Positions 8,419-60,385 of a DNA stretch of 64,000 nucleotides are shown here, piece after piece. The DNA is from Flectonema sp. DT1601. Taxonomy: Eukaryota > Euglenozoa > Diplonemea > Diplonemida > Diplonemidae. Made by a program: the position numbers and the translations under genes. The notes beneath the pieces are model-generated. The model ran no database searches. It was not told where the DNA came from and saw nothing but the letters and a program-made list of their open reading frames with translations. The stretch is taken from positions 1,240,001 through 1,304,000 of the forward strand of contig OZ025799.1 of the NCBI GenBank assembly GCA_964019425.1. The letters run 5' to 3'. Within the stretch, counting starts at the first letter, position 1; the number at the start of each line of letters is the position of its first letter.

Positions 8419-8537
8419 GCCTGCGGCCATACTCTGGTGAATGCACCCCATCCCGCCCGATTTGGGAAGTTAAGCACCAGCAGGCCTGGTTAGTACTGCG
8501 GTGAGTGATCACGTGGGAACCCCGGGTGCTTGCAGGC
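8419..8537 (+). rRNA. 5S ribosomal RNA (first of 64 intact copies)
   Basis: The 119-nt gene begins GCCTGCGGCC and ends TTGCAGGC, whose last six bases pair with the first six (helix I). Conserved 5S blocks are present in order: CATCCCG, GATTTGGGAAGTTAAGC and the GGTTAGTACTGCGGTG region, followed by GGGAACCCCGGGTG. The RNA is a structural part of the large ribosomal subunit and is made by RNA polymerase III. Copies in later blocks are listed by start position in the block entries; each is 119 nt. Confidence 0.97.
8467..8515 (+). promoter_or_regulatory. Internal 5S promoter (box A to box C region)
   Basis: AAGTTAAGC at 8467-8475 matches box A. The GGTTAGTACTGCGGTGAG region up to about 8515 corresponds to the intermediate element and box C, where the TFIIIA-type factor binds in other eukaryotes. 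The same elements repeat in every 5S copy. Confidence 0.7.
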
Positions 8538-8542
8538 TTTTT
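8538..8542 (+). terminator. RNA polymerase III terminator of 5S gene
   Basis: A run of five T follows the 5S 3' end directly, as expected for polymerase III termination. It repeats after each 5S copy. Confidence 0.8.
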
Positions 8543-8645
8543 CCCTTACTTCCCTACCCGCAAGCAGGCATTTCTGTTAGTTCTGGCTGGTAGTTCTAAA
8601 AGCCACACAATTTCTAATTACCTGGGGTAACTACTTTTTAAGGTT

Positions 8646-8756
8646 AACCAACGATTCTAAAGCTACAGTTTCTGTACTTTATTGGTACAGTCTCAACATC
8701 CGAGCTTGCTTGGAATATTTAGCTGACCTCTTAGGAAGAATTTTCTTCCTTTGGGG
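8646..8756 (+). ncRNA. Spliced-leader RNA gene (first of 57 intact copies)
   Basis: The exon is 8646-8684, 39 nt, starting AACCAACGATTC and ending CTGTACTTTATTG, the hallmark end of kinetoplastid leaders. The intron begins GTACAG at 8685. A stem-loop CCGAGC-TTG-CTTGG lies just inside the intron, and a GGAAGAATTTTCTTCC palindrome holds an AATTTT Sm-like site near 8739-8744. The RNA is about 111 nt before a T tract, within the usual range. It donates the capped exon to every nuclear mRNA by trans-splicing. Exon nt 4 is C where the well-known leaders have U. The spacer upstream (8543-8645) must hold the polymerase II promoter, but I cannot place its elements. Confidence 0.95.
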
Positions 8757-8763
8757 TTTTTTT
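8757..8763 (+). terminator. T-tract terminator of SL RNA gene
   Basis: Seven T follow GGGG directly downstream of the Sm-like region. Kinetoplastid SL genes end transcription at such T tracts. It repeats in each unit. Confidence 0.75.
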
Positions 8764-11700
8764 ATTGTCCGTGGACTTGTGTTTGCCAAGTAGAAGGAAA
8801 TGTACAAAGACTTACCGTGTTTCCTATTTTTACGTTTTGCGTAAAGAAATTTTAATATATTTCTTTTTTGGCTTTCTTCCCCGAAAGACGTAATTTTCGC
8901 CGCCCGTACGTTAACGTTAAAGCTAAGACCGAGCCCCAGCCCCACTCTGCAAAATCAATAAAATTTTCTAAATTTTTTCCTGGTGGGTTGCCCCATGAAA
9001 CTCCCAAGAAATAAAAAAATCCGCTATTGCCTGCGGCCATACTCTGGTGAATGCACCCCATCCCGCCCGATTTGGGAAGTTAAGCACCAGCAGGCCTGGT
9101 TAGTACTGCGGTGAGTGATCACGTGGGAACCCCGGGTGCTTGCAGGCTTTTTCCCTTACTTCCCTACCCGCAAGCAGGCATTTCTGTTAGTTCTGGCTGG
9201 TAGTTCTAAAAGCCACACAATTTCTAATTACCTGGGGTAACTACTTTTTAAGGTTAACCAACGATTCTAAAGCTACAGTTTCTGTACTTTATTGGTACAG
9301 TCTCAACATCCGAGCTTGCTTGGAATATTTAGCTGACCTCTTAGGAAGAATTTTCTTCCTTTGGGGTTTTTTTATTGTCCGTGGACTTGTGTTTGCCAAG
9401 TAGAAGGAAATGTACAAAGACTTACCGTGTTTCCTATTTTTACGTTTTGCGTAAAGAAATTTTAATATATTTCTTTTTTGGCTTTCTTCCCCGAAAGACG
9501 TAATTTTCGCCGCCCGTACGTTAACGTTAAAGCTAAGACCGAGCCCCAGCCCCACTCTGCAAAATCAATAAAATTTTCTAAATTTTTTCCTGGTGGGTTG
9601 CCCCATGAAACTCCCAAGAAATAAAAAAATCCGCTATTGCCTGCGGCCATACTCTGGTGAATGCACCCCATCCCGCCCGATTTGGGAAGTTAAGCACCAG
9701 CAGGCCTGGTTAGTACTGCGGTGAGTGATCACGTGGGAACCCCGGGTGCTTGCAGGCTTTTTCCCTTACTTCCCTACCCGCAAGCAGGCATTTCTGTTAG
9801 TTCTGGCTGGTAGTTCTAAAAGCCACACAATTTCTAATTACCTGGGGTAACTACTTTTTAAGGTTAACCAACGATTCTAAAGCTACAGTTTCTGTACTTT
9901 ATTGGTACAGTCTCAACATCCGAGCTTGCTTGGAATATTTAGCTGACCTCTTAGGAAGAATTTTCTTCCTTTGGGGTTTTTTTATTGTCCGTGGACTTGT
10001 GTTTGCCAAGTAGAAGGAAATGTACAAAGACTTACCGTGTTTCCTATTTTTACGTTTTGCGTAAAGAAATTTTAATATATTTCTTTTTTGGCTTTCTTCC
10101 CCGAAAGACGTAATTTTCGCCGCCCGTACGTTAACGTTAAAGCTAAGACCGAGCCCCAGCCCCACTCTGCAAAATCAATAAAATTTTCTAAATTTTTTCC
10201 TGGTGGGTTGCCCCATGAAACTCCCAAGAAATAAAAAAATCCGCTATTGCCTGCGGCCATACTCTGGTGAATGCACCCCATCCCGCCCGATTTGGGAAGT
10301 TAAGCACCAGCAGGCCTGGTTAGTACTGCGGTGAGTGATCACGTGGGAACCCCGGGTGCTTGCAGGCTTTTTCCCTTACTTCCCTACCCGCAAGCAGGCA
10401 TTTCTGTTAGTTCTGGCTGGTAGTTCTAAAAGCCACACAATTTCTAATTACCTGGGGTAACTACTTTTTAAGGTTAACCAACGATTCTAAAGCTACAGTT
10501 TCTGTACTTTATTGGTACAGTCTCAACATCCGAGCTTGCTTGGAATATTTAGCTGACCTCTTAGGAAGAATTTTCTTCCTTTGGGGTTTTTTTATTGTCC
10601 GTGGACTTGTGTTTGCCAAGTAGAAGGAAATGTACAAAGACTTACCGTGTTTCCTATTTTTACGTTTTGCGTAAAGAAATTTTAATATATTTCTTTTTTG
10701 GCTTTCTTCCCCGAAAGACGTAATTTTCGCCGCCCGTACGTTAACGTTAAAGCTAAGACCGAGCCCCAGCCCCACTCTGCAAAATCAATAAAATTTTCTA
10801 AATTTTTTCCTGGTGGGTTGCCCCATGAAACTCCCAAGAAATAAAAAAATCCGCTATTGCCTGCGGCCATACTCTGGTGAATGCACCCCATCCCGCCCGA
10901 TTTGGGAAGTTAAGCACCAGCAGGCCTGGTTAGTACTGCGGTGAGTGATCACGTGGGAACCCCGGGTGCTTGCAGGCTTTTTCCCTTACTTCCCTACCCG
11001 CAAGCAGGCATTTCTGTTAGTTCTGGCTGGTAGTTCTAAAAGCCACACAATTTCTAATTACCTGGGGTAACTACTTTTTAAGGTTAACCAACGATTCTAA
11101 AGCTACAGTTTCTGTACTTTATTGGTACAGTCTCAACATCCGAGCTTGCTTGGAATATTTAGCTGACCTCTTAGGAAGAATTTTCTTCCTTTGGGGTTTT
11201 TTTATTGTCCGTGGACTTGTGTTTGCCAAGTAGAAGGAAATGTACAAAGACTTACCGTGTTTCCTATTTTTACGTTTTGCGTAAAGAAATTTTAATATAT
11301 TTCTTTTTTGGCTTTCTTCCCCGAAAGACGTAATTTTCGCCGCCCGTACGTTAACGTTAAAGCTAAGACCGAGCCCCAGCCCCACTCTGCAAAATCAATA
11401 AAATTTTCTAAATTTTTTCCTGGTGGGTTGCCCCATGAAACTCCCAAGAAATAAAAAAATCCGCTATTGCCTGCGGCCATACTCTGGTGAATGCACCCCA
11501 TCCCGCCCGATTTGGGAAGTTAAGCACCAGCAGGCCTGGTTAGTACTGCGGTGAGTGATCACGTGGGAACCCCGGGTGCTTGCAGGCTTTTTCCCTTACT
11601 TCCCTACCCGCAAGCAGGCATTTCTGTTAGTTCTGGCTGGTAGTTCTAAAAGCCACACAATTTCTAATTACCTGGGGTAACTACTTTTTAAGGTTAACCA

Positions 11701-14700
11701 ACGATTCTAAAGCTACAGTTTCTGTACTTTATTGGTACAGTCTCAACATCCGAGCTTGCTTGGAATATTTAGCTGACCTCTTAGGAAGAATTTTCTTCCT
11801 TTGGGGTTTTTTTATTGTCCGTGGACTTGTGTTTGCCAAGTAGAAGGAAATGTACAAAGACTTACCGTGTTTCCTATTTTTACGTTTTGCGTAAAGAAAT
11901 TTTAATATATTTCTTTTTTGGCTTTCTTCCCCGAAAGACGTAATTTTCGCCGCCCGTACGTTAACGTTAAAGCTAAGACCGAGCCCCAGCCCCACTCTGC
12001 AAAATCAATAAAATTTTCTAAATTTTTTCCTGGTGGGTTGCCCCATGAAACTCCCAAGAAATAAAAAAATCCGCTATTGCCTGCGGCCATACTCTGGTGA
12101 ATGCACCCCATCCCGCCCGATTTGGGAAGTTAAGCACCAGCAGGCCTGGTTAGTACTGCGGTGAGTGATCACGTGGGAACCCCGGGTGCTTGCAGGCTTT
12201 TTCCCTTACTTCCCTACCCGCAAGCAGGCATTTCTGTTAGTTCTGGCTGGTAGTTCTAAAAGCCACACAATTTCTAATTACCTGGGGTAACTACTTTTTA
12301 AGGTTAACCAACGATTCTAAAGCTACAGTTTCTGTACTTTATTGGTACAGTCTCAACATCCGAGCTTGCTTGGAATATTTAGCTGACCTCTTAGGAAGAA
12401 TTTTCTTCCTTTGGGGTTTTTTTATTGTCCGTGGACTTGTGTTTGCCAAGTAGAAGGAAATGTACAAAGACTTACCGTGTTTCCTATTTTTACGTTTTGC
12501 GTAAAGAAATTTTAATATATTTCTTTTTTGGCTTTCTTCCCCGAAAGACGTAATTTTCGCCGCCCGTACGTTAACGTTAAAGCTAAGACCGAGCCCCAGC
12601 CCCACTCTGCAAAATCAATAAAATTTTCTAAATTTTTTCCTGGTGGGTTGCCCCATGAAACTCCCAAGAAATAAAAAAATCCGCTATTGCCTGCGGCCAT
12701 ACTCTGGTGAATGCACCCCATCCCGCCCGATTTGGGAAGTTAAGCACCAGCAGGCCTGGTTAGTACTGCGGTGAGTGATCACGTGGGAACCCCGGGTGCT
12801 TGCAGGCTTTTTCCCTTACTTCCCTACCCGCAAGCAGGCATTTCTGTTAGTTCTGGCTGGTAGTTCTAAAAGCCACACAATTTCTAATTACCTGGGGTAA
12901 CTACTTTTTAAGGTTAACCAACGATTCTAAAGCTACAGTTTCTGTACTTTATTGGTACAGTCTCAACATCCGAGCTTGCTTGGAATATTTAGCTGACCTC
13001 TTAGGAAGAATTTTCTTCCTTTGGGGTTTTTTTATTGTCCGTGGACTTGTGTTTGCCAAGTAGAAGGAAATGTACAAAGACTTACCGTGTTTCCTATTTT
13101 TACGTTTTGCGTAAAGAAATTTTAATATATTTCTTTTTTGGCTTTCTTCCCCGAAAGACGTAATTTTCGCCGCCCGTACGTTAACGTTAAAGCTAAGACC
13201 GAGCCCCAGCCCCACTCTGCAAAATCAATAAAATTTTCTAAATTTTTTCCTGGTGGGTTGCCCCATGAAACTCCCAAGAAATAAAAAAATCCGCTATTGC
13301 CTGCGGCCATACTCTGGTGAATGCACCCCATCCCGCCCGATTTGGGAAGTTAAGCACCAGCAGGCCTGGTTAGTACTGCGGTGAGTGATCACGTGGGAAC
13401 CCCGGGTGCTTGCAGGCTTTTTCCCTTACTTCCCTACCCGCAAGCAGGCATTTCTGTTAGTTCTGGCTGGTAGTTCTAAAAGCCACACAATTTCTAATTA
13501 CCTGGGGTAACTACTTTTTAAGGTTAACCAACGATTCTAAAGCTACAGTTTCTGTACTTTATTGGTACAGTCTCAACATCCGAGCTTGCTTGGAATATTT
13601 AGCTGACCTCTTAGGAAGAATTTTCTTCCTTTGGGGTTTTTTTATTGTCCGTGGACTTGTGTTTGCCAAGTAGAAGGAAATGTACAAAGACTTACCGTGT
13701 TTCCTATTTTTACGTTTTGCGTAAAGAAATTTTAATATATTTCTTTTTTGGCTTTCTTCCCCGAAAGACGTAATTTTCGCCGCCCGTACGTTAACGTTAA
13801 AGCTAAGACCGAGCCCCAGCCCCACTCTGCAAAATCAATAAAATTTTCTAAATTTTTTCCTGGTGGGTTGCCCCATGAAACTCCCAAGAAATAAAAAAAT
13901 CCGCTATTGCCTGCGGCCATACTCTGGTGAATGCACCCCATCCCGCCCGATTTGGGAAGTTAAGCACCAGCAGGCCTGGTTAGTACTGCGGTGAGTGATC
14001 ACGTGGGAACCCCGGGTGCTTGCAGGCTTTTTCCCTTACTTCCCTACCCGCAAGCAGGCATTTCTGTTAGTTCTGGCTGGTAGTTCTAAAAGCCACACAA
14101 TTTCTAATTACCTGGGGTAACTACTTTTTAAGGTTAACCAACGATTCTAAAGCTACAGTTTCTGTACTTTATTGGTACAGTCTCAACATCCGAGCTTGCT
14201 TGGAATATTTAGCTGACCTCTTAGGAAGAATTTTCTTCCTTTGGGGTTTTTTTATTGTCCGTGGACTTGTGTTTGCCAAGTAGAAGGAAATGTACAAAGA
14301 CTTACCGTGTTTCCTATTTTTACGTTTTGCGTAAAGAAATTTTAATATATTTCTTTTTTGGCTTTCTTCCCCGAAAGACGTAATTTTCGCCGCCCGTACG
14401 TTAACGTTAAAGCTAAGACCGAGCCCCAGCCCCACTCTGCAAAATCAATAAAATTTTCTAAATTTTTTCCTGGTGGGTTGCCCCATGAAACTCCCAAGAA
14501 ATAAAAAAATCCGCTATTGCCTGCGGCCATACTCTGGTGAATGCACCCCATCCCGCCCGATTTGGGAAGTTAAGCACCAGCAGGCCTGGTTAGTACTGCG
14601 GTGAGTGATCACGTGGGAACCCCGGGTGCTTGCAGGCTTTTTCCCTTACTTCCCTACCCGCAAGCAGGCATTTCTGTTAGTTCTGGCTGGTAGTTCTAAA

Positions 14701-17700
14701 AGCCACACAATTTCTAATTACCTGGGGTAACTACTTTTTAAGGTTAACCAACGATTCTAAAGCTACAGTTTCTGTACTTTATTGGTACAGTCTCAACATC
14801 CGAGCTTGCTTGGAATATTTAGCTGACCTCTTAGGAAGAATTTTCTTCCTTTGGGGTTTTTTTATTGTCCGTGGACTTGTGTTTGCCAAGTAGAAGGAAA
14901 TGTACAAAGACTTACCGTGTTTCCTATTTTTACGTTTTGCGTAAAGAAATTTTAATATATTTCTTTTTTGGCTTTCTTCCCCGAAAGACGTAATTTTCGC
15001 CGCCCGTACGTTAACGTTAAAGCTAAGACCGAGCCCCAGCCCCACTCTGCAAAATCAATAAAATTTTCTAAATTTTTTCCTGGTGGGTTGCCCCATGAAA
15101 CTCCCAAGAAATAAAAAAATCCGCTATTGCCTGCGGCCATACTCTGGTGAATGCACCCCATCCCGCCCGATTTGGGAAGTTAAGCACCAGCAGGCCTGGT
15201 TAGTACTGCGGTGAGTGATCACGTGGGAACCCCGGGTGCTTGCAGGCTTTTTCCCTTACTTCCCTACCCGCAAGCAGGCATTTCTGTTAGTTCTGGCTGG
15301 TAGTTCTAAAAGCCACACAATTTCTAATTACCTGGGGTAACTACTTTTTAAGGTTAACCAACGATTCTAAAGCTACAGTTTCTGTACTTTATTGGTACAG
15401 TCTCAACATCCGAGCTTGCTTGGAATATTTAGCTGACCTCTTAGGAAGAATTTTCTTCCTTTGGGGTTTTTTTATTGTCCGTGGACTTGTGTTTGCCAAG
15501 TAGAAGGAAATGTACAAAGACTTACCGTGTTTCCTATTTTTACGTTTTGCGTAAAGAAATTTTAATATATTTCTTTTTTGGCTTTCTTCCCCGAAAGACG
15601 TAATTTTCGCCGCCCGTACGTTAACGTTAAAGCTAAGACCGAGCCCCAGCCCCACTCTGCAAAATCAATAAAATTTTCTAAATTTTTTCCTGGTGGGTTG
15701 CCCCATGAAACTCCCAAGAAATAAAAAAATCCGCTATTGCCTGCGGCCATACTCTGGTGAATGCACCCCATCCCGCCCGATTTGGGAAGTTAAGCACCAG
15801 CAGGCCTGGTTAGTACTGCGGTGAGTGATCACGTGGGAACCCCGGGTGCTTGCAGGCTTTTTCCCTTACTTCCCTACCCGCAAGCAGGCATTTCTGTTAG
15901 TTCTGGCTGGTAGTTCTAAAAGCCACACAATTTCTAATTACCTGGGGTAACTACTTTTTAAGGTTAACCAACGATTCTAAAGCTACAGTTTCTGTACTTT
16001 ATTGGTACAGTCTCAACATCCGAGCTTGCTTGGAATATTTAGCTGACCTCTTAGGAAGAATTTTCTTCCTTTGGGGTTTTTTTATTGTCCGTGGACTTGT
16101 GTTTGCCAAGTAGAAGGAAATGTACAAAGACTTACCGTGTTTCCTATTTTTACGTTTTGCGTAAAGAAATTTTAATATATTTCTTTTTTGGCTTTCTTCC
16201 CCGAAAGACGTAATTTTCGCCGCCCGTACGTTAACGTTAAAGCTAAGACCGAGCCCCAGCCCCACTCTGCAAAATCAATAAAATTTTCTAAATTTTTTCC
16301 TGGTGGGTTGCCCCATGAAACTCCCAAGAAATAAAAAAATCCGCTATTGCCTGCGGCCATACTCTGGTGAATGCACCCCATCCCGCCCGATTTGGGAAGT
16401 TAAGCACCAGCAGGCCTGGTTAGTACTGCGGTGAGTGATCACGTGGGAACCCCGGGTGCTTGCAGGCTTTTTCCCTTACTTCCCTACCCGCAAGCAGGCA
16501 TTTCTGTTAGTTCTGGCTGGTAGTTCTAAAAGCCACACAATTTCTAATTACCTGGGGTAACTACTTTTTAAGGTTAACCAACGATTCTAAAGCTACAGTT
16601 TCTGTACTTTATTGGTACAGTCTCAACATCCGAGCTTGCTTGGAATATTTAGCTGACCTCTTAGGAAGAATTTTCTTCCTTTGGGGTTTTTTTATTGTCC
16701 GTGGACTTGTGTTTGCCAAGTAGAAGGAAATGTACAAAGACTTACCGTGTTTCCTATTTTTACGTTTTGCGTAAAGAAATTTTAATATATTTCTTTTTTG
16801 GCTTTCTTCCCCGAAAGACGTAATTTTCGCCGCCCGTACGTTAACGTTAAAGCTAAGACCGAGCCCCAGCCCCACTCTGCAAAATCAATAAAATTTTCTA
16901 AATTTTTTCCTGGTGGGTTGCCCCATGAAACTCCCAAGAAATAAAAAAATCCGCTATTGCCTGCGGCCATACTCTGGTGAATGCACCCCATCCCGCCCGA
17001 TTTGGGAAGTTAAGCACCAGCAGGCCTGGTTAGTACTGCGGTGAGTGATCACGTGGGAACCCCGGGTGCTTGCAGGCTTTTTCCCTTACTTCCCTACCCG
17101 CAAGCAGGCATTTCTGTTAGTTCTGGCTGGTAGTTCTAAAAGCCACACAATTTCTAATTACCTGGGGTAACTACTTTTTAAGGTTAACCAACGATTCTAA
17201 AGCTACAGTTTCTGTACTTTATTGGTACAGTCTCAACATCCGAGCTTGCTTGGAATATTTAGCTGACCTCTTAGGAAGAATTTTCTTCCTTTGGGGTTTT
17301 TTTATTGTCCGTGGACTTGTGTTTGCCAAGTAGAAGGAAATGTACAAAGACTTACCGTGTTTCCTATTTTTACGTTTTGCGTAAAGAAATTTTAATATAT
17401 TTCTTTTTTGGCTTTCTTCCCCGAAAGACGTAATTTTCGCCGCCCGTACGTTAACGTTAAAGCTAAGACCGAGCCCCAGCCCCACTCTGCAAAATCAATA
17501 AAATTTTCTAAATTTTTTCCTGGTGGGTTGCCCCATGAAACTCCCAAGAAATAAAAAAATCCGCTATTGCCTGCGGCCATACTCTGGTGAATGCACCCCA
17601 TCCCGCCCGATTTGGGAAGTTAAGCACCAGCAGGCCTGGTTAGTACTGCGGTGAGTGATCACGTGGGAACCCCGGGTGCTTGCAGGCTTTTTCCCTTACT

Positions 17701-17821
17701 TCCCTACCCGCAAGCAGGCATTTCTGTTAGTTCTGGCTGGTAGTTCTAAAAGCCACACAATTTCTAATTACCTGGGGTAACTACTTTTTAAGGTTAACCA
17801 ACGATTCTAAAGCTACAGTTT

Positions 17822-18296
17822 TTGCAAATTTATTTCAGTAATTGCGCAGCCATCCAAAATGCACCAGAATTTAGGCAGAAAACTTTCTTACTAGAAAAGT
17901 AAGAAAGGTTTTTGCCCAAGGAAAAGATGCTGGATTTCTGCGCATAAGCAGGTTTAGGAAAGATAGATAAGGTATAATAGGATGAGAAAGGACTCCTTTT
18001 AGTAGGCAATCTGGTTTTGAAATCTAGGTGTTCGGCTGCTAATTCAGTTAGCAGTAAAAAATCATGGAGTTTTGGTGCTAAGTTGTCTTTTTGTTATAGT
18101 TTAAATAATTTGGATTCTAATAAATTTATCACGCCGAATCGAAACGGGCACCAGCCACTACCCCAACGCAATAAACTGTCTTAGACAGCTTCTCTGTGTT
18201 TGCTAGTTTGATCCATTAGTTTGTTTTATTAGTTTAATTAGTTTCATCTATACATTTCATTCGTCAGGTGCATGATATGGAAGGCAAGCGCAATTA
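17822..18296 (+). mobile_element. SIRE-like 475-bp non-autonomous YR-type element, copy 1, in an SL exon
   Basis: The insertion lies exactly between SL exon nt 26 and 27 with no target duplication. It has two parts shared with the larger element at 40164-42373: part A (17822-18128, 307 bp) and part B (18129-18296, 168 bp). It has no coding capacity. Part A starts TTGCAAATTTATTTCAG and holds two perfect hairpins (10-bp stem 17883-17907, 7-bp stem 18036-18054). Part B ends GCGCAATTA. The relation to its larger relative is like that of SIRE to VIPER in Trypanosoma cruzi (family analogy). It looks whole for its class and, given near identity among copies, young or recently amplified. Confidence 0.85.
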
Positions 18297-19516
18297 CTGT
18301 ACTTTATTGGTACAGTCTCAACATCCGAGCTTGCTTGGAATATTTAGCTGACCTCTTAGGAAGAATTTTCTTCCTTTGGGGTTTTTTTATTGTCGGTGGA
18401 CTTGTGTTTGCCAAGTAGAAGGAAATGTACAAAGACTTACCGTGTTTCCTATTTTTACGTTTTGCGTAAAGAAATTTTAATATATTTCTTTTTTGGCTTT
18501 CTTCCCCGAAAGACGTAATTTTCGCCGCCCGTACGTTAACGTTAAAGCTAAGACCGAGCCCCAGCCCCACTCTGCAAAATCAATAAAATTTTCTAAATTT
18601 TTTCCTGGTGGGTTGCCCCATGAAACTCCCAAGAAATAAAAAAATCCGCTATTGCCTGCGGCCATACTCTGGTGAATGCACCCCATCCCGCCCGATTTGG
18701 GAAGTTAAGCACCAGCAGGCCTGGTTAGTACTGCGGTGAGTGATCACGTGGGAACCCCGGGTGCTTGCAGGCTTTTTCCCTTACTTCCCTACCCGCAAGC
18801 AGGCATTTCTGTTAGTTCTGGCTGGTAGTTCTAAAAGCCACACAATTTCTAATTACCTGGGGTAACTACTTTTTAAGGTTAACCAACGATTCTAAAGCTA
18901 CAGTTTCTGTACTTTATTGGTACAGTCTCAACATCCGAGCTTGCTTGGAATATTTAGCTGACCTCTTAGGAAGAATTTTCTTCCTTTGGGGTTTTTTTAT
19001 TGTCCGTGGACTTGTGTTTGCCAAGTAGAAGGAAATGTACAAAGACTTACCGTGTTTCCTATTTTTACGTTTTGCGTAAAGAAATTTTAATATATTTCTT
19101 TTTTGGCTTTCTTCCCCGAAAGACGTAATTTTCGCCGCCCGTACGTTAACGTTAAAGCTAAGACCGAGCCCCAGCCCCACTCTGCAAAATCAATAAAATT
19201 TTCTAAATTTTTTCCTGGTGGGTTGCCCCATGAAACTCCCAAGAAATAAAAAAATCCGCTATTGCCTGCGGCCATACTCTGGTGAATGCACCCCATCCCG
19301 CCCGATTTGGGAAGTTAAGCACCAGCAGGCCTGGTTAGTACTGCGGTGAGTGATCACGTGGGAACCCCGGGTGCTTGCAGGCTTTTTCCCTTACTTCCCT
19401 ACCCGCAAGCAGGCATTTCTGTTAGTTCTGGCTGGTAGTTCTAAAAGCCACACAATTTCTAATTACCTGGGGTAACTACTTTTTAAGGTTAACCAACGAT
19501 TCTAAAGCTACAGTTT
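18297..19516 (+). repeat. Array block 2: two 5S genes, one intact SL gene
   Basis: The SL 3' part (exon nt 27-39 and intron) begins at 18297. 5S genes start at 18654 and 19264. The intact SL exon starts at 18881. An SL 5' part, 19491-19516, precedes the next insertion. The unit after the insertion carries G instead of C at 18395. Confidence 0.92.
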
Positions 19517-19991
19517 TTGCAAATTTATTTCAGTAATTGCGCAGCCATCCAAAATGCACCAGAATTTAGGCAGAAAACTTTCTTACTAGAAAAGTAAGAA
19601 AGGTTTTTGCCCAAGGAAAAGATGCTGGATTTCTGCGCATAAGCAGGTTTAGGAAAGATAGATAAGGTATAATAGGATGAGAAAGGACTCCTTTTAGTAG
19701 GCAATCTGGTTTTGAAATCTAGGTGTTCGGCTGCTAATTCAGTTAGCAGTAAAAAATCATGGAGTTTTGGTGCTAAGTTGTCTTTTTGTTATAGTTTAAA
19801 TAATTTGGATTCTAATAAATTTATCACGCCGAATCGAAACGGGCACCAGCCACTACCCCAACGCAATAAACTGTCTTAGACAGCTTCTCTGTGTTTGCTA
19901 GTTTGATCCATTAGTTTGTTTTATTAGTTTAATTAGTTTCATCTATACATTTCATTCGTCAGGTGCATGATATGGAAGGCAAGCGCAATTA
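19517..19991 (+). mobile_element. SIRE-like element, copy 2
   Basis: Same 475-bp A+B structure, same orientation and same SL exon bond as copy 1. The downstream unit again carries the G variant (20090). Confidence 0.85.
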
Positions 19992-22900
19992 CTGTACTTT
20001 ATTGGTACAGTCTCAACATCCGAGCTTGCTTGGAATATTTAGCTGACCTCTTAGGAAGAATTTTCTTCCTTTGGGGTTTTTTTATTGTCGGTGGACTTGT
20101 GTTTGCCAAGTAGAAGGAAATGTACAAAGACTTACCGTGTTTCCTATTTTTACGTTTTGCGTAAAGAAATTTTAATATATTTCTTTTTTGGCTTTCTTCC
20201 CCGAAAGACGTAATTTTCGCCGCCCGTACGTTAACGTTAAAGCTAAGACCGAGCCCCAGCCCCACTCTGCAAAATCAATAAAATTTTCTAAATTTTTTCC
20301 TGGTGGGTTGCCCCATGAAACTCCCAAGAAATAAAAAAATCCGCTATTGCCTGCGGCCATACTCTGGTGAATGCACCCCATCCCGCCCGATTTGGGAAGT
20401 TAAGCACCAGCAGGCCTGGTTAGTACTGCGGTGAGTGATCACGTGGGAACCCCGGGTGCTTGCAGGCTTTTTCCCTTACTTCCCTACCCGCAAGCAGGCA
20501 TTTCTGTTAGTTCTGGCTGGTAGTTCTAAAAGCCACACAATTTCTAATTACCTGGGGTAACTACTTTTTAAGGTTAACCAACGATTCTAAAGCTACAGTT
20601 TCTGTACTTTATTGGTACAGTCTCAACATCCGAGCTTGCTTGGAATATTTAGCTGACCTCTTAGGAAGAATTTTCTTCCTTTGGGGTTTTTTTATTGTCC
20701 GTGGACTTGTGTTTGCCAAGTAGAAGGAAATGTACAAAGACTTACCGTGTTTCCTATTTTTACGTTTTGCGTAAAGAAATTTTAATATATTTCTTTTTTG
20801 GCTTTCTTCCCCGAAAGACGTAATTTTCGCCGCCCGTACGTTAACGTTAAAGCTAAGACCGAGCCCCAGCCCCACTCTGCAAAATCAATAAAATTTTCTA
20901 AATTTTTTCCTGGTGGGTTGCCCCATGAAACTCCCAAGAAATAAAAAAATCCGCTATTGCCTGCGGCCATACTCTGGTGAATGCACCCCATCCCGCCCGA
21001 TTTGGGAAGTTAAGCACCAGCAGGCCTGGTTAGTACTGCGGTGAGTGATCACGTGGGAACCCCGGGTGCTTGCAGGCTTTTTCCCTTACTTCCCTACCCG
21101 CAAGCAGGCATTTCTGTTAGTTCTGGCTGGTAGTTCTAAAAGCCACACAATTTCTAATTACCTGGGGTAACTACTTTTTAAGGTTAACCAACGATTCTAA
21201 AGCTACAGTTTCTGTACTTTATTGGTACAGTCTCAACATCCGAGCTTGCTTGGAATATTTAGCTGACCTCTTAGGAAGAATTTTCTTCCTTTGGGGTTTT
21301 TTTATTGTCCGTGGACTTGTGTTTGCCAAGTAGAAGGAAATGTACAAAGACTTACCGTGTTTCCTATTTTTACGTTTTGCGTAAAGAAATTTTAATATAT
21401 TTCTTTTTTGGCTTTCTTCCCCGAAAGACGTAATTTTCGCCGCCCGTACGTTAACGTTAAAGCTAAGACCGAGCCCCAGCCCCACTCTGCAAAATCAATA
21501 AAATTTTCTAAATTTTTTCCTGGTGGGTTGCCCCATGAAACTCCCAAGAAATAAAAAAATCCGCTATTGCCTGCGGCCATACTCTGGTGAATGCACCCCA
21601 TCCCGCCCGATTTGGGAAGTTAAGCACCAGCAGGCCTGGTTAGTACTGCGGTGAGTGATCACGTGGGAACCCCGGGTGCTTGCAGGCTTTTTCCCTTACT
21701 TCCCTACCCGCAAGCAGGCATTTCTGTTAGTTCTGGCTGGTAGTTCTAAAAGCCACACAATTTCTAATTACCTGGGGTAACTACTTTTTAAGGTTAACCA
21801 ACGATTCTAAAGCTACAGTTTCTGTACTTTATTGGTACAGTCTCAACATCCGAGCTTGCTTGGAATATTTAGCTGACCTCTTAGGAAGAATTTTCTTCCT
21901 TTGGGGTTTTTTTATTGTCCGTGGACTTGTGTTTGCCAAGTAGAAGGAAATGTACAAAGACTTACCGTGTTTCCTATTTTTACGTTTTGCGTAAAGAAAT
22001 TTTAATATATTTCTTTTTTGGCTTTCTTCCCCGAAAGACGTAATTTTCGCCGCCCGTACGTTAACGTTAAAGCTAAGACCGAGCCCCAGCCCCACTCTGC
22101 AAAATCAATAAAATTTTCTAAATTTTTTCCTGGTGGGTTGCCCCATGAAACTCCCAAGAAATAAAAAAATCCGCTATTGCCTGCGGCCATACTCTGGTGA
22201 ATGCACCCCATCCCGCCCGATTTGGGAAGTTAAGCACCAGCAGGCCTGGTTAGTACTGCGGTGAGTGATCACGTGGGAACCCCGGGTGCTTGCAGGCTTT
22301 TTCCCTTACTTCCCTACCCGCAAGCAGGCATTTCTGTTAGTTCTGGCTGGTAGTTCTAAAAGCCACACAATTTCTAATTACCTGGGGTAACTACTTTTTA
22401 AGGTTAACCAACGATTCTAAAGCTACAGTTTCTGTACTTTATTGGTACAGTCTCAACATCCGAGCTTGCTTGGAATATTTAGCTGACCTCTTAGGAAGAA
22501 TTTTCTTCCTTTGGGGTTTTTTTATTGTCCGTGGACTTGTGTTTGCCAAGTAGAAGGAAATGTACAAAGACTTACCGTGTTTCCTATTTTTACGTTTTGC
22601 GTAAAGAAATTTTAATATATTTCTTTTTTGGCTTTCTTCCCCGAAAGACGTAATTTTCGCCGCCCGTACGTTAACGTTAAAGCTAAGACCGAGCCCCAGC
22701 CCCACTCTGCAAAATCAATAAAATTTTCTAAATTTTTTCCTGGTGGGTTGCCCCATGAAACTCCCAAGAAATAAAAAAATCCGCTATTGCCTGCGGCCAT
22801 ACTCTGGTGAATGCACCCCATCCCGCCCGATTTGGGAAGTTAAGCACCAGCAGGCCTGGTTAGTACTGCGGTGAGTGATCACGTGGGAACCCCGGGTGCT

Positions 22901-23651
22901 TGCAGGCTTTTTCCCTTACTTCCCTACCCGCAAGCAGGCATTTCTGTTAGTTCTGGCTGGTAGTTCTAAAAGCCACACAATTTCTAATTACCTGGGGTAA
23001 CTACTTTTTAAGGTTAACCAACGATTCTAAAGCTACAGTTTCTGTACTTTATTGGTACAGTCTCAACATCCGAGCTTGCTTGGAATATTTAGCTGACCTC
23101 TTAGGAAGAATTTTCTTCCTTTGGGGTTTTTTTATTGTCCGTGGACTTGTGTTTGCCAAGTAGAAGGAAATGTACAAAGACTTACCGTGTTTCCTATTTT
23201 TACGTTTTGCGTAAAGAAATTTTAATATATTTCTTTTTTGGCTTTCTTCCCCGAAAGACGTAATTTTCGCCGCCCGTACGTTAACGTTAAAGCTAAGACC
23301 GAGCCCCAGCCCCACTCTGCAAAATCAATAAAATTTTCTAAATTTTTTCCTGGTGGGTTGCCCCATGAAACTCCCAAGAAATAAAAAAATCCGCTATTGC
23401 CTGCGGCCATACTCTGGTGAATGCACCCCATCCCGCCCGATTTGGGAAGTTAAGCACCAGCAGGCCTGGTTAGTACTGCGGTGAGTGATCACGTGGGAAC
23501 CCCGGGTGCTTGCAGGCTTTTTCCCTTACTTCCCTACCCGCAAGCAGGCATTTCTGTTAGTTCTGGCTGGTAGTTCTAAAAGCCACACAATTTCTAATTA
23601 CCTGGGGTAACTACTTTTTAAGGTTAACCAACGATTCTAAAGCTACAGTTT
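19992..23651 (+). repeat. Array block 3: six 5S genes, five intact SL genes
   Basis: 5S genes start at 20349 + 610k for k = 0-5. Intact SL exons start at 20576 + 610k for k = 0-4. A split SL 3' part begins at 19992 and a split 5' part ends at 23651. Confidence 0.92.
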
Positions 23652-24126
23652 TTGCAAATTTATTTCAGTAATTGCGCAGCCATCCAAAATGCACCAGAAT
23701 TTAGGCAGAAAACTTTCTTACTAGAAAAGTAAGAAAGGTTTTTGCCCAAGGAAAAGATGCTGGATTTCTGCGCATAAGCAGGTTTAGGAAAGATAGATAA
23801 GGTATAATAGGATGAGAAAGGACTCCTTTTAGTAGGCAATCTGGTTTTGAAATCTAGGTGTTCGGCTGCTAATTCAGTTAGCAGTAAAAAATCATGGAGT
23901 TTTGGTGCTAAGTTGTCTTTTTGTTATAGTTTAAATAATTTGGATTCTAATAAATTTATCACGCCGAATCGAAACGGGCACCAGCCACTACCCCAACGCA
24001 ATAAACTGTCTTAGACAGCTTCTCTGTGTTTGCTAGTTTGATCCATTAGTTTGTTTTATTAGTTTAATTAGTTTCATCTATACATTTCATTCGTCAGGTG
24101 CATGATATGGAAGGCAAGCGCAATTA
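23652..24126 (+). mobile_element. SIRE-like element, copy 3
   Basis: Same 475-bp element, site and orientation. The downstream unit has the common C variant, unlike copies 1 and 2. Confidence 0.85.
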
Positions 24127-25346
24127 CTGTACTTTATTGGTACAGTCTCAACATCCGAGCTTGCTTGGAATATTTAGCTGACCTCTTAGGAAGAATTTTC
24201 TTCCTTTGGGGTTTTTTTATTGTCCGTGGACTTGTGTTTGCCAAGTAGAAGGAAATGTACAAAGACTTACCGTGTTTCCTATTTTTACGTTTTGCGTAAA
24301 GAAATTTTAATATATTTCTTTTTTGGCTTTCTTCCCCGAAAGACGTAATTTTCGCCGCCCGTACGTTAACGTTAAAGCTAAGACCGAGCCCCAGCCCCAC
24401 TCTGCAAAATCAATAAAATTTTCTAAATTTTTTCCTGGTGGGTTGCCCCATGAAACTCCCAAGAAATAAAAAAATCCGCTATTGCCTGCGGCCATACTCT
24501 GGTGAATGCACCCCATCCCGCCCGATTTGGGAAGTTAAGCACCAGCAGGCCTGGTTAGTACTGCGGTGAGTGATCACGTGGGAACCCCGGGTGCTTGCAG
24601 GCTTTTTCCCTTACTTCCCTACCCGCAAGCAGGCATTTCTGTTAGTTCTGGCTGGTAGTTCTAAAAGCCACACAATTTCTAATTACCTGGGGTAACTACT
24701 TTTTAAGGTTAACCAACGATTCTAAAGCTACAGTTTCTGTACTTTATTGGTACAGTCTCAACATCCGAGCTTGCTTGGAATATTTAGCTGACCTCTTAGG
24801 AAGAATTTTCTTCCTTTGGGGTTTTTTTATTGTCCGTGGACTTGTGTTTGCCAAGTAGAAGGAAATGTACAAAGACTTACCGTGTTTCCTATTTTTACGT
24901 TTTGCGTAAAGAAATTTTAATATATTTCTTTTTTGGCTTTCTTCCCCGAAAGACGTAATTTTCGCCGCCCGTACGTTAACGTTAAAGCTAAGACCGAGCC
25001 CCAGCCCCACTCTGCAAAATCAATAAAATTTTCTAAATTTTTTCCTGGTGGGTTGCCCCATGAAACTCCCAAGAAATAAAAAAATCCGCTATTGCCTGCG
25101 GCCATACTCTGGTGAATGCACCCCATCCCGCCCGATTTGGGAAGTTAAGCACCAGCAGGCCTGGTTAGTACTGCGGTGAGTGATCACGTGGGAACCCCGG
25201 GTGCTTGCAGGCTTTTTCCCTTACTTCCCTACCCGCAAGCAGGCATTTCTGTTAGTTCTGGCTGGTAGTTCTAAAAGCCACACAATTTCTAATTACCTGG
25301 GGTAACTACTTTTTAAGGTTAACCAACGATTCTAAAGCTACAGTTT
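24127..25346 (+). repeat. Array block 4: two 5S genes, one intact SL gene
   Basis: 5S genes start at 24484 and 25094; the intact SL exon starts at 24711. The block layout and length (1220 bp) equal those of block 2, suggesting that insertion-bearing segments were duplicated as a unit. Confidence 0.92.
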
Positions 25347-25821
25347 TTGCAAATTTATTTCAGTAATTGCGCAGCCATCCAAAATGCACCAGAATTTAGG
25401 CAGAAAACTTTCTTACTAGAAAAGTAAGAAAGGTTTTTGCCCAAGGAAAAGATGCTGGATTTCTGCGCATAAGCAGGTTTAGGAAAGATAGATAAGGTAT
25501 AATAGGATGAGAAAGGACTCCTTTTAGTAGGCAATCTGGTTTTGAAATCTAGGTGTTCGGCTGCTAATTCAGTTAGCAGTAAAAAATCATGGAGTTTTGG
25601 TGCTAAGTTGTCTTTTTGTTATAGTTTAAATAATTTGGATTCTAATAAATTTATCACGCCGAATCGAAACGGGCACCAGCCACTACCCCAACGCAATAAA
25701 CTGTCTTAGACAGCTTCTCTGTGTTTGCTAGTTTGATCCATTAGTTTGTTTTATTAGTTTAATTAGTTTCATCTATACATTTCATTCGTCAGGTGCATGA
25801 TATGGAAGGCAAGCGCAATTA
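25347..25821 (+). mobile_element. SIRE-like element, copy 4
   Basis: Same element, site and orientation. The downstream unit carries the G variant at 25920. Confidence 0.85.
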
Positions 25822-28800
25822 CTGTACTTTATTGGTACAGTCTCAACATCCGAGCTTGCTTGGAATATTTAGCTGACCTCTTAGGAAGAATTTTCTTCCT
25901 TTGGGGTTTTTTTATTGTCGGTGGACTTGTGTTTGCCAAGTAGAAGGAAATGTACAAAGACTTACCGTGTTTCCTATTTTTACGTTTTGCGTAAAGAAAT
26001 TTTAATATATTTCTTTTTTGGCTTTCTTCCCCGAAAGACGTAATTTTCGCCGCCCGTACGTTAACGTTAAAGCTAAGACCGAGCCCCAGCCCCACTCTGC
26101 AAAATCAATAAAATTTTCTAAATTTTTTCCTGGTGGGTTGCCCCATGAAACTCCCAAGAAATAAAAAAATCCGCTATTGCCTGCGGCCATACTCTGGTGA
26201 ATGCACCCCATCCCGCCCGATTTGGGAAGTTAAGCACCAGCAGGCCTGGTTAGTACTGCGGTGAGTGATCACGTGGGAACCCCGGGTGCTTGCAGGCTTT
26301 TTCCCTTACTTCCCTACCCGCAAGCAGGCATTTCTGTTAGTTCTGGCTGGTAGTTCTAAAAGCCACACAATTTCTAATTACCTGGGGTAACTACTTTTTA
26401 AGGTTAACCAACGATTCTAAAGCTACAGTTTCTGTACTTTATTGGTACAGTCTCAACATCCGAGCTTGCTTGGAATATTTAGCTGACCTCTTAGGAAGAA
26501 TTTTCTTCCTTTGGGGTTTTTTTATTGTCCGTGGACTTGTGTTTGCCAAGTAGAAGGAAATGTACAAAGACTTACCGTGTTTCCTATTTTTACGTTTTGC
26601 GTAAAGAAATTTTAATATATTTCTTTTTTGGCTTTCTTCCCCGAAAGACGTAATTTTCGCCGCCCGTACGTTAACGTTAAAGCTAAGACCGAGCCCCAGC
26701 CCCACTCTGCAAAATCAATAAAATTTTCTAAATTTTTTCCTGGTGGGTTGCCCCATGAAACTCCCAAGAAATAAAAAAATCCGCTATTGCCTGCGGCCAT
26801 ACTCTGGTGAATGCACCCCATCCCGCCCGATTTGGGAAGTTAAGCACCAGCAGGCCTGGTTAGTACTGCGGTGAGTGATCACGTGGGAACCCCGGGTGCT
26901 TGCAGGCTTTTTCCCTTACTTCCCTACCCGCAAGCAGGCATTTCTGTTAGTTCTGGCTGGTAGTTCTAAAAGCCACACAATTTCTAATTACCTGGGGTAA
27001 CTACTTTTTAAGGTTAACCAACGATTCTAAAGCTACAGTTTCTGTACTTTATTGGTACAGTCTCAACATCCGAGCTTGCTTGGAATATTTAGCTGACCTC
27101 TTAGGAAGAATTTTCTTCCTTTGGGGTTTTTTTATTGTCCGTGGACTTGTGTTTGCCAAGTAGAAGGAAATGTACAAAGACTTACCGTGTTTCCTATTTT
27201 TACGTTTTGCGTAAAGAAATTTTAATATATTTCTTTTTTGGCTTTCTTCCCCGAAAGACGTAATTTTCGCCGCCCGTACGTTAACGTTAAAGCTAAGACC
27301 GAGCCCCAGCCCCACTCTGCAAAATCAATAAAATTTTCTAAATTTTTTCCTGGTGGGTTGCCCCATGAAACTCCCAAGAAATAAAAAAATCCGCTATTGC
27401 CTGCGGCCATACTCTGGTGAATGCACCCCATCCCGCCCGATTTGGGAAGTTAAGCACCAGCAGGCCTGGTTAGTACTGCGGTGAGTGATCACGTGGGAAC
27501 CCCGGGTGCTTGCAGGCTTTTTCCCTTACTTCCCTACCCGCAAGCAGGCATTTCTGTTAGTTCTGGCTGGTAGTTCTAAAAGCCACACAATTTCTAATTA
27601 CCTGGGGTAACTACTTTTTAAGGTTAACCAACGATTCTAAAGCTACAGTTTCTGTACTTTATTGGTACAGTCTCAACATCCGAGCTTGCTTGGAATATTT
27701 AGCTGACCTCTTAGGAAGAATTTTCTTCCTTTGGGGTTTTTTTATTGTCCGTGGACTTGTGTTTGCCAAGTAGAAGGAAATGTACAAAGACTTACCGTGT
27801 TTCCTATTTTTACGTTTTGCGTAAAGAAATTTTAATATATTTCTTTTTTGGCTTTCTTCCCCGAAAGACGTAATTTTCGCCGCCCGTACGTTAACGTTAA
27901 AGCTAAGACCGAGCCCCAGCCCCACTCTGCAAAATCAATAAAATTTTCTAAATTTTTTCCTGGTGGGTTGCCCCATGAAACTCCCAAGAAATAAAAAAAT
28001 CCGCTATTGCCTGCGGCCATACTCTGGTGAATGCACCCCATCCCGCCCGATTTGGGAAGTTAAGCACCAGCAGGCCTGGTTAGTACTGCGGTGAGTGATC
28101 ACGTGGGAACCCCGGGTGCTTGCAGGCTTTTTCCCTTACTTCCCTACCCGCAAGCAGGCATTTCTGTTAGTTCTGGCTGGTAGTTCTAAAAGCCACACAA
28201 TTTCTAATTACCTGGGGTAACTACTTTTTAAGGTTAACCAACGATTCTAAAGCTACAGTTTCTGTACTTTATTGGTACAGTCTCAACATCCGAGCTTGCT
28301 TGGAATATTTAGCTGACCTCTTAGGAAGAATTTTCTTCCTTTGGGGTTTTTTTATTGTCCGTGGACTTGTGTTTGCCAAGTAGAAGGAAATGTACAAAGA
28401 CTTACCGTGTTTCCTATTTTTACGTTTTGCGTAAAGAAATTTTAATATATTTCTTTTTTGGCTTTCTTCCCCGAAAGACGTAATTTTCGCCGCCCGTACG
28501 TTAACGTTAAAGCTAAGACCGAGCCCCAGCCCCACTCTGCAAAATCAATAAAATTTTCTAAATTTTTTCCTGGTGGGTTGCCCCATGAAACTCCCAAGAA
28601 ATAAAAAAATCCGCTATTGCCTGCGGCCATACTCTGGTGAATGCACCCCATCCCGCCCGATTTGGGAAGTTAAGCACCAGCAGGCCTGGTTAGTACTGCG
28701 GTGAGTGATCACGTGGGAACCCCGGGTGCTTGCAGGCTTTTTCCCTTACTTCCCTACCCGCAAGCAGGCATTTCTGTTAGTTCTGGCTGGTAGTTCTAAA

Positions 28801-28871
28801 AGCCACACAATTTCTAATTACCTGGGGTAACTACTTTTTAAGGTTAACCAACGATTCTAAAGCTACAGTTT
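25822..28871 (+). repeat. Array block 5: five 5S genes, four intact SL genes
   Basis: 5S genes start at 26179 + 610k for k = 0-4. Intact SL exons start at 26406 + 610k for k = 0-3. A split SL 5' part ends at 28871. Confidence 0.92.
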
Positions 28872-29346
28872 TTGCAAATTTATTTCAGTAATTGCGCAGC
28901 CATCCAAAATGCACCAGAATTTAGGCAGAAAACTTTCTTACTAGAAAAGTAAGAAAGGTTTTTGCCCAAGGAAAAGATGCTGGATTTCTGCGCATAAGCA
29001 GGTTTAGGAAAGATAGATAAGGTATAATAGGATGAGAAAGGACTCCTTTTAGTAGGCAATCTGGTTTTGAAATCTAGGTGTTCGGCTGCTAATTCAGTTA
29101 GCAGTAAAAAATCATGGAGTTTTGGTGCTAAGTTGTCTTTTTGTTATAGTTTAAATAATTTGGATTCTAATAAATTTATCACGCCGAATCGAAACGGGCA
29201 CCAGCCACTACCCCAACGCAATAAACTGTCTTAGACAGCTTCTCTGTGTTTGCTAGTTTGATCCATTAGTTTGTTTTATTAGTTTAATTAGTTTCATCTA
29301 TACATTTCATTCGTCAGGTGCATGATATGGAAGGCAAGCGCAATTA
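28872..29346 (+). mobile_element. SIRE-like element, copy 5
   Basis: Same element, site and orientation. The downstream unit has the C variant. Confidence 0.85.
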
Positions 29347-38300: not shown

Positions 38301-40163
38301 ACCAGCAGGCCTGGTTAGTACTGCGGTGAGTGATCACGTGGGAACCCCGGGTGCTTGCAGGCTTTTTCCCTTACTTCCCTACCCGCAAGCAGGCATTTCT
38401 GTTAGTTCTGGCTGGTAGTTCTAAAAGCCACACAATTTCTAATTACCTGGGGTAACTACTTTTTAAGGTTAACCAACGATTCTAAAGCTACAGTTTCTGT
38501 ACTTTATTGGTACAGTCTCAACATCCGAGCTTGCTTGGAATATTTAGCTGACCTCTTAGGAAGAATTTTCTTCCTTTGGGGTTTTTTTATTGTCCGTGGA
38601 CTTGTGTTTGCCAAGTAGAAGGAAATGTACAAAGACTTACCGTGTTTCCTATTTTTACGTTTTGCGTAAAGAAATTTTAATATATTTCTTTTTTGGCTTT
38701 CTTCCCCGAAAGACGTAATTTTCGCCGCCCGTACGTTAACGTTAAAGCTAAGACCGAGCCCCAGCCCCACTCTGCAAAATCAATAAAATTTTCTAAATTT
38801 TTTCCTGGTGGGTTGCCCCATGAAACTCCCAAGAAATAAAAAAATCCGCTATTGCCTGCGGCCATACTCTGGTGAATGCACCCCATCCCGCCCGATTTGG
38901 GAAGTTAAGCACCAGCAGGCCTGGTTAGTACTGCGGTGAGTGATCACGTGGGAACCCCGGGTGCTTGCAGGCTTTTTCCCTTACTTCCCTACCCGCAAGC
39001 AGGCATTTCTGTTAGTTCTGGCTGGTAGTTCTAAAAGCCACACAATTTCTAATTACCTGGGGTAACTACTTTTTAAGGTTAACCAACGATTCTAAAGCTA
39101 CAGTTTCTGTACTTTATTGGTACAGTCTCAACATCCGAGCTTGCTTGGAATATTTAGCTGACCTCTTAGGAAGAATTTTCTTCCTTTGGGGTTTTTTTAT
39201 TGTCCGTGGACTTGTGTTTGCCAAGTAGAAGGAAATGTACAAAGACTTACCGTGTTTCCTATTTTTACGTTTTGCGTAAAGAAATTTTAATATATTTCTT
39301 TTTTGGCTTTCTTCCCCGAAAGACGTAATTTTCGCCGCCCGTACGTTAACGTTAAAGCTAAGACCGAGCCCCAGCCCCACTCTGCAAAATCAATAAAATT
39401 TTCTAAATTTTTTCCTGGTGGGTTGCCCCATGAAACTCCCAAGAAATAAAAAAATCCGCTATTGCCTGCGGCCATACTCTGGTGAATGCACCCCATCCCG
39501 CCCGATTTGGGAAGTTAAGCACCAGCAGGCCTGGTTAGTACTGCGGTGAGTGATCACGTGGGAACCCCGGGTGCTTGCAGGCTTTTTCCCTTACTTCCCT
39601 ACCCGCAAGCAGGCATTTCTGTTAGTTCTGGCTGGTAGTTCTAAAAGCCACACAATTTCTAATTACCTGGGGTAACTACTTTTTAAGGTTAACCAACGAT
39701 TCTAAAGCTACAGTTTCTGTACTTTATTGGTACAGTCTCAACATCCGAGCTTGCTTGGAATATTTAGCTGACCTCTTAGGAAGAATTTTCTTCCTTTGGG
39801 GTTTTTTTATTGTCCGTGGACTTGTGTTTGCCAAGTAGAAGGAAATGTACAAAGACTTACCGTGTTTCCTATTTTTACGTTTTGCGTAAAGAAATTTTAA
39901 TATATTTCTTTTTTGGCTTTCTTCCCCGAAAGACGTAATTTTCGCCGCCCGTACGTTAACGTTAAAGCTAAGACCGAGCCCCAGCCCCACTCTGCAAAAT
40001 CAATAAAATTTTCTAAATTTTTTCCTGGTGGGTTGCCCCATGAAACTCCCAAGAAATAAAAAAATCCGCTATTGCCTGCGGCCATACTCTGGTGAATGCA
40101 CCCCATCCCGCCCGATTTGGGAAGTTAAGCACCAGCAGGCCTGGTTAGTACTGCGGTGAGTGA
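29347..40163 (+). repeat. Array block 6: 17 intact 5S genes, 17 intact SL genes, one truncated 5S
   Basis: 5S genes start at 29704 + 610k for k = 0-16. Intact SL exons start at 29931 + 610k for k = 0-16 (last 39691). The eighteenth 5S (40074) is cut off at 40163 where the larger element begins. This is the longest uninterrupted run of the array. Confidence 0.92.
40074..40163 (+). pseudogene. Truncated 5S rRNA gene
   Basis: The first 90 of 119 nt are present, ending within the box C region at GTGAGTGA. The 3' helix strand and terminator are missing because element sequence follows directly. Such an RNA could not close helix I. Confidence 0.9.
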
Positions 40164-41697: not shown

Positions 41698-41809
41698 ACA
41701 GCTTCTCTGTGTTTGCTAGTTTGATCCATTAGTTTGTTTTATTAGTTTAATTAGTTTCATCTATACATTTCATTCGTCAGGTGCATGATATGGAAGGCAA
41801 GCGCAATTA
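41642..41809 (+). repeat. Terminal repeat B, first copy
   Basis: This 168-bp sequence starts TCACGCCGAATCG and ends GCGCAATTA. It matches the B part of all seven short elements and is followed at once by repeat A. Confidence 0.85.
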
Positions 41810-57694: not shown

Positions 57695-57701
57695 GAATAG
57701 G

Positions 57702-60378: not shown

Positions 60379-60385
60379 CCTATTC

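Follow-up and report, generated by a model that had tools for sequence, protein, structure and literature searches.

A probable SL-exon-specific tyrosine-recombinase retrotransposon lineage of VIPER/TATE architecture in a likely diplonemid

Exons of spliced-leader (SL) RNA genes are a niche of LINE-type retroelements, and SLACS, CRE and CZAR insert in them between nt 11 and 12. Among the retrotransposons that carry a tyrosine recombinase (YR), those of VIPER/TATE architecture are described, in the accessible parts of two papers, as having gag-like, YR and reverse transcriptase/RNase H (RT/RH) open reading frames (PMC6681497; PMC12278014), and TATE as always inserting at the same point within the telomeric hexamer, GGG^TTA (PMC6681497, available text). 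For DIRS1-like elements, a 3-bp circle junction is reported to recombine with an identical genomic sequence (PMC3266345, available text). The accessible part of PMC6681497 also refers to repeat annealing as a model for PAT-like elements. In the available text of the genome paper on Diplonema papillatum, ORFs resembling SLACS and TATE are noted, with targets not given there (PMC10161547). The locus described here, an SL array with inserts, is best read, at a probability of about 0.87, as a home of an SL-exon-specific, recently active YR retrotransposon lineage of VIPER/TATE architecture in a probable diplonemid.

The window, a 64,000-nt stretch of contig C20 (C20:1240001-1304000) from an 89.5-Mb assembly to which all genome-wide counts refer, holds an SL RNA-5S rRNA tandem array (Table 1) with a 39-nt SL exon, AACCAACGATTCTAAAGCTACAGTTTCTGTACTTTATTG. 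Of its 64 exon starts, 56 belong to empty 610-bp units and seven to units that carry a 475-bp insert, of which the last (52583) runs off the array end; the remaining one, at 39691, is an intact exon in a unit made longer by a piece of a larger element. Genome-wide, the intact 23-mer of the target site occurs 717 times. SL arrays vary in unit length between contigs: those of C37 and C71 (L021, L024, L025) have units of 408-440 bp, no 5S gene being detected in the stretches of them that were read, and SL-5S arrays with units of 606-650 bp are present elsewhere. In D. papillatum SL and 5S also share one repeat, there with U2 (PMC10161547, available text), and the organism-named protein relatives in the match lists are those of D. 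papillatum. Judged by the SL-5S rRNA arrays and these protein relatives, the host is probably a diplonemid and not a trypanosomatid; the preliminary description had pointed to related kinetoplastid genomes. Dispersed isolated SL exons resemble the 5' ends of retrocopied trans-spliced RNAs, and at C4:888180 (L056 365-405) the SL is joined to a leader of the type of F56, a relative family, followed by repeated partial copies. The window also contains a palindrome centred near 59,039, with 97% of sampled positions matching, which reflects an inverted duplication or else a fold-back in the assembly; the same LINE-like ORF lies on both strands (53942-57730, minus; 60350-64000, plus), and SL-array copies go on past the window on the other strand of the palindrome.

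All seven 475-bp inserts, identical in sequence, have CTACAGTTT joined to TTGCAAAT at their left junctions and, like the right end of the larger piece, GCGCAATTA joined to CTGTACTTTATTG at their right junctions. The junctions can be placed unambiguously, at the bond between nt 26 and 27 of the SL exon, and target-site duplication is absent, left ends stopping at nt 26 and right ends starting at nt 27. These junctions agree with the single bond named in the preliminary description, which had further located the insertion inside the centre of a dyad. The exon does hold a perfect 5-bp inverted repeat around TTT (TACAG-TTT-CTGTA), and the bond is found at the 3' edge of that centre (TTT/CTG), not inside it.

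Genome-wide, the left terminus, searched with up to three mismatches, occurs 80 times (51 external and 29 internal, the latter at the junction of repeats B1 and A2), and the right terminus, searched exactly, 77 times (49 external, 28 internal); 70 of the left ends were read (51 external, 19 internal), and the other ten abut a B end by their coordinates and count as internal. SL exon nt 26/27 is the position of every one of the 51 external left ends, which are spread over ten contigs (C20, C22, C33, C37, C41, C61, C63, C69, C71 and C85), and of every one of the 49 external right ends, found on nine of those contigs. The fixity of the site is therefore not chance, and the strict use of this bond by the element's termini that had been proposed from the window holds for each external end read in the assembly. 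Since all external ends read are in SL exons, the telomeric-repeat position is not used by the SL family. The many copies at unrelated sites that would have spoken against specificity were not found: outside SL genes the search returned one 2.4-kb internal fragment (99%) at C36, without ends and beside a 190-bp satellite. Contig C68 begins inside an element copy. Two of the 51 interrupted exons have an altered left arm (TAAAG, TACGG), and because neither variant is present in the intact exons counted, these are probably later mutations.

A complete copy of the element on C63 (L009) measures 5,148 bp and consists, in order, of A1 (1-370), a gag-like ORF, a 410-aa YR ORF, an overlapping RT-RH frame, B1, A2, 19 bp and B2. 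Repeats A (370 bp) and B (175 bp) are each 100% identical within this copy, which has split direct repeats of the form A1 ... B1-A2-B2 and in whose self-comparison no inverted repeat appeared at the threshold used. The strict site and this repeat structure support the earlier proposal of a YR-type retroelement that targets the SL exon, here one with split direct repeats, distinct from the LINE-type SLACS, CRE and CZAR. The first ORF has no domain match and is called gag-like by its position. In the 410-aa ORF and 11 relatives, R257, K286, H346, K349, R350, H377 and Y390 are invariant (12 of 12), and we take the R, K, H, K/R, H and Y columns to be candidate residues of the tyrosine-recombinase catalytic boxes. 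Such residues are as expected for a tyrosine recombinase, and the ORF probably encodes the enzyme that cuts and joins. PF00589 matches two of these 12 sequences (best 6.6e-06, 26.4 bits, just below the cut-off of 27.1); the SL family's own 410-aa ORF has no Pfam match, and no recombinase came up when a profile of the 12 was compared with solved structures. A profile of the window's RT ORF with 30 of its 81 relatives matches solved RTs (best 6e-17), and among these 31 members RNase H models match up to nine and RVT_1 six, the window's ORF by itself giving no RNase H or RVT_1 match at E <= 0.01. At the left join of the window's truncated copy (40074-40190), a broken 5S rRNA gene is fused to the RT region.

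Table 1. Location of the SL array, its inserts and the element's parts; positions are those of the window unless a locus (L) is named.
Feature	Position	Strand	Remark
SL RNA-5S rRNA tandem array	8419..53096	+	610-bp unit, 64 SL-exon starts
SL exon nt 1-26 of interrupted exon	17796..17821	+	
475-bp A-B solo insert	17822..18296	+	A nt 1-308 + last 167 bp of B
SL exon nt 27-39	18297..18309	+	
475-bp A-B solo insert	19517..19991	+	
475-bp A-B solo insert	23652..24126	+	
475-bp A-B solo insert	25347..25821	+	
475-bp A-B solo insert	28872..29346	+	
475-bp A-B solo insert	48474..48948	+	
475-bp A-B solo insert	52609..53083	+	
5'-truncated element copy	40164..42373	+	element nt 2939-5148, 99.5% to C63 copy
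RT/RNase H part of element's last ORF	40164..41697	+	open frame 40129-41697
Repeat B1	41635..41809	+	
Repeat A2	41810..42179	+	B1/A2 junction GCAATTA/TTGCAAAT
Repeat B2	42199..42373	+	right end ATTA/CTGTACTTTATTG
First ORF, gag-like	L009 2486-3760		basis: position
YR ORF	L009 3761-4993		
RT-RH frame	L009 3715-6798		
SL-element nt 325 fusion	L026 541863-541970		C85 coordinates
SL-element nt 325 fusion	L025 near C71:24330-24298		

Solos of 564 bp, found in the C63, C61, C71 and C33 arrays, correspond to the A2+B2 region of the full element, a SIRE-like feature, and the 475-bp inserts are this A-B end with 89 bp missing. Recombination between A1 and A2 would leave the 564-bp solos, of which the 475-bp form would be a deletion derivative, spread through the window's array by unequal exchange. 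That the short inserts are instead a mobile SIRE-like non-autonomous family, moved by the enzymes of the full-length element, is possible though doubtful: 564-bp solos do sit in four arrays, and for four of seven of them the nearest relative compared sits in another array, yet these seven lie 0, 0, 1, 2, 5, 6 and 9 bases away from the terminal 564 bp of the closest full copy and can arise by A1 x A2 recombination, and ends 475 bp apart are confined to C20, where they occur ten times.

Because the window's seven inserts are identical, have one deletion in common and are partly linked to a unit variant, C125G, seen in four of the seven insert-bearing units and in none of the 56 empty ones, they probably stem from a single insertion that was multiplied together with its array, and the window alone therefore does not show repeated targeting. 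The three 475-bp copies beyond the window, on the minus strand of C20, include an exact mirror of the 52609 copy about the palindrome centre, a second copy one unit off the mirror of another and a third without counterpart; they may be copies on the second palindrome arm. As evidence for targeting, the window's own eight copies are weak and the genome, with its many separate insertions, is strong.

It is very unlikely that, across the genome as within the window, all copies derive from one chance SL-gene insertion spread by array duplication and between-array exchange. Besides the identical window inserts with their shared internal deletion and C125G, and the restriction of the 475-bp form to C20, such descent would accommodate the near-duplicates among full-length copies; against it, flanks are local to each array while element copies do not sort by array. 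The upstream 100 bp of 39 insertions agree to 98-100% with empty units on their own contig, as do the downstream 100 bp of the 35 of these that were read on that side. From array to array the main unit types diverge by 0-16% on each side, and one C37 unit by more. C33 and C20 have one upstream flank type in common, downstream types recur in the pairs C37/C20 and C63/C85, and part of the local look of the flanks could be due to concerted evolution. The 13 whole copies compared (4.7-5.3 kb; a set without two C33 composite copies of 7.8 and 8.9 kb and the C22 and C69 copies) are 0-62 substitutions apart and are not sorted by array, C33_104947 having 22 differences from the C85 copy and 31-41 from other C33 copies. 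Three close pairs (0, 2 and 3 differences) look like duplicates, which leaves ten lineages. Among these, pN/pS is 0.12 for the gag-like ORF, 0.27 for YR (in an overlapping frame) and 0.27 for RT-RH, purifying selection that speaks against descent from a single insertion; variable codons, synonymous to not, number 12/6 in the gag-like ORF, 15/13 in YR and 21/20 in RT-RH, and the near-even split in the latter two counts against the selection evidence. The three ORFs lack stops in 12 of the 13 copies, in the C37 copy the RT frame is broken and gag contains a gap, and 30 stop-free YR frames of 410 aa are present among 102 scored matches. The divergence among copies, this suggests, arose via functional rounds of transposition.

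Also set against a single insertion is a second family, F57, with 57% YR identity, which is listed at six loci among the scored matches and whose right ends were read at five, that of the C25 copy falling outside the stretch read. Four of these five lie at ATTA/CTGTACTTTATTG, one in the C33 array and three in isolated SL exons (one on C24, two on C11) that continue into non-array sequence; the left half of the C11 copy at 1.49 Mb likewise sits in an isolated exon, ACCAACGATTCTAAAGCTACAGTTT/CTGTTAAA, without array upstream sequence. Two diverged families sharing one bond inside and outside arrays are not producible by array duplication. The single-insertion account, contradicted genome-wide by the second family, is the best account of the seven window solos. 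Descent by array duplication, the outcome that the preliminary description had named as damaging to its case, probably applies to the window's seven inserts and fails genome-wide on flanks, lineages, selection and F57.

YR relatives at 43-60% identity are common in the genome (102 of 313 candidates scored). The fifth F57 right end, on C80, is non-SL, ATTAGTTA/CTATTAA, and six more non-SL right ends were classified, with other flanks, from 15 fetched relative loci outside F57; all seven, C80 included, start with CT at +1/+2. At a possible exception, C67 (AAATTA/CCAGTC), outer end and internal junction are not distinguishable. The classified set leaves aside right ends on C4, C8, C67, C22, C15 (two), C26, C6 and C54, and the left ends read leave aside those of C24, C25, C33:407138, C39, C18, C48 and C64. 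A CT start looks general in these sequences, and a preference for the SL looks like a specialisation of some of the families. Of the suggestion that the YR site consists of dyad arms around a core, site specificity survives; the dyad is no more than a candidate for the recognised feature, since relatives use other CT-starting sites. Three YR-family relatives, L057 (C48), L068 (C25) and L075 (C26), adjoin long (AAACCCGC)n repeats, possibly telomeric, and are perhaps TATE-like families. The A repeat of F56-type copies (L058/L059) includes a block that by eye resembles a reversed tRNA, ARAGORN finding no tRNA in L059, and a 214-bp segment is inverted between L058 and L059.

The internal B1/A2 junction has arms GCAA and TTGC around TTA, the target arms TACAG and CTGTA around TTT, and the products read are always CAG-TTT-TTGC (bar the two altered left arms) and GCAA-TTA-CTG. 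Along the lines of the repeat-annealing model, the B1/A2 junction should be the form in which the circle integrates. Element RNA would be transcribed from the upstream SL promoter, reverse transcription templated by the internal B1-A2 junction would yield a circle with the junction GCAATTA/TTGC, and the YR would join this to the SL exon at TTT/CTG. Whereas DIRS1-like elements keep core identity between circle and target, the SL family does not (TTA versus TTT). Random resolution of the TTA/TTT core was rejected as the sole account, all ten element lineages having TTT on the left and TTA on the right; over ten or more events a duplex circle with a mismatched 3-bp core should yield mixed outcomes, and the fixed outcome therefore implies a defined crossover edge or a one-strand exchange.

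In B-A junction stretches picked by eye, the numbers of shuffles among 2000 that align as good an inverted repeat are 1 for the SL family, 14 for F55, 213 for F56 and 297 for F57, support that is strong in the first two and weak in the others. Folded as single-stranded DNA, the same junctions give z values of -5.3 (SL), -4.1 (F57), -2.2 (F56) and -2.8 (F55), with 0, 0, 5 and 2 of 200 shuffles, respectively, folding as well. A hairpin-capable inverted repeat around the B-A junction of the four families may be taken as a lead only. Integron cassettes offer an analogy, their recombination substrate being folded and single-stranded. On that analogy we put forward, as a speculation that is unlikely to be right as it stands, that the YR lineage uses the SL exon as a natural attachment site providing promoter, trans-splice substrate and safe multicopy home, and that the YR would join an imperfect, hairpin-capable circle junction to the SL site by exchanging one defined strand, perhaps of folded single-stranded DNA; this, as opposed to a duplex circle with random core resolution, would account for the target's TTT always ending up on the left and the element's TTA on the right.

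Traces of an RNA stage are found inside copies on C85 and C71, where an SL exon, present with 38 of its 39 nt, runs directly into element nt 325, right after the acceptor TTTTACTTTTGCAG; these joints, at element nt 324/325, precede the gag ATG at nt 370, and in the C85 copy a further, incomplete SL piece of about 25 nt is attached near nt 360. At the left end of the C33 F57 copy, a whole 39-nt SL exon is joined to a splice acceptor inside the A repeat, with the SL promoter region upstream. Most simply, the joints in the C85 and C71 copies would be fossils of trans-spliced element RNA. That targeting itself works through homology between SL genes and the SL carried on trans-spliced element cDNA, and not through site recognition by the YR, could draw on these fossils and on the complete exon of the F57 copy, but is scarcely credible when such cDNA would carry the whole exon, the SL family's left ends join only exon nt 1-26 to the element's first base in 51 of 51 cases, and right ends are equally fixed.

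A family of YR retrotransposons devoted to SL genes would share a niche familiar from LINEs and use a different bond and a different enzyme there. With one short sequence, present more than 700 times, as its target, the integration of YR retrotransposons, whose chemistry has so far been largely inferred, becomes directly testable with short oligonucleotides, and the SL and non-SL sites used by relatives within this genome offer a natural series on which specificity can be mapped. In the literature searched (the matches listed, as titles and abstract openings, with few subscription papers), no YR retrotransposon in SL genes was described. The statement that an SL-specific VIPER/SIRE-like family had not been reported agrees with that search; as regards target specificity in general it needs qualifying by TATE, as target-specific YR elements as such are already known and TATE, from what is available of its description, is the closest precedent.

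Placement among YR elements rests on architecture, with VIPER and TATE compared by description and no named VIPER or TATE protein among the protein matches listed. TATE shares with the SL family the class of YR retrotransposon, the gag-like, YR and RT-RH ORFs and, in at least one copy, the A1/B1-A2-B2 arrangement (PMC6681497, available text), whereas its target, compared by description and not by sequence, is the telomeric repeat and that of the SL family the SL exon. VIPER, of Trypanosoma cruzi and others, has the same ORF order, split direct repeats and lack of target duplication, and SIRE corresponds to its A2+B2 region as the 564-bp solos do to that of the SL element; VIPER differs, again by description, in its host group and in that no fixed target is given for it in the accessible text (PMC6681497; PMC12278014). 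DIRS1-like elements are likewise YR retrotransposons, integrating by way of a 3-bp circle junction and leaving no target duplication (PMC3266345, available text), but have inverted terminal repeats and internal complementary regions where the SL family has direct, split A/B repeats. Dada elements also specialise on multicopy small RNA genes (PMC8869645, available text) but are DNA transposons with target duplications of 6-7 bp, whereas the SL family is a YR retrotransposon with none. SLACS, CRE and CZAR, of the CRE clade, share the specialisation on SL exons and are LINE-type elements with target duplications, whereas the SL family is YR-type, makes no duplication and enters between nt 26 and 27.
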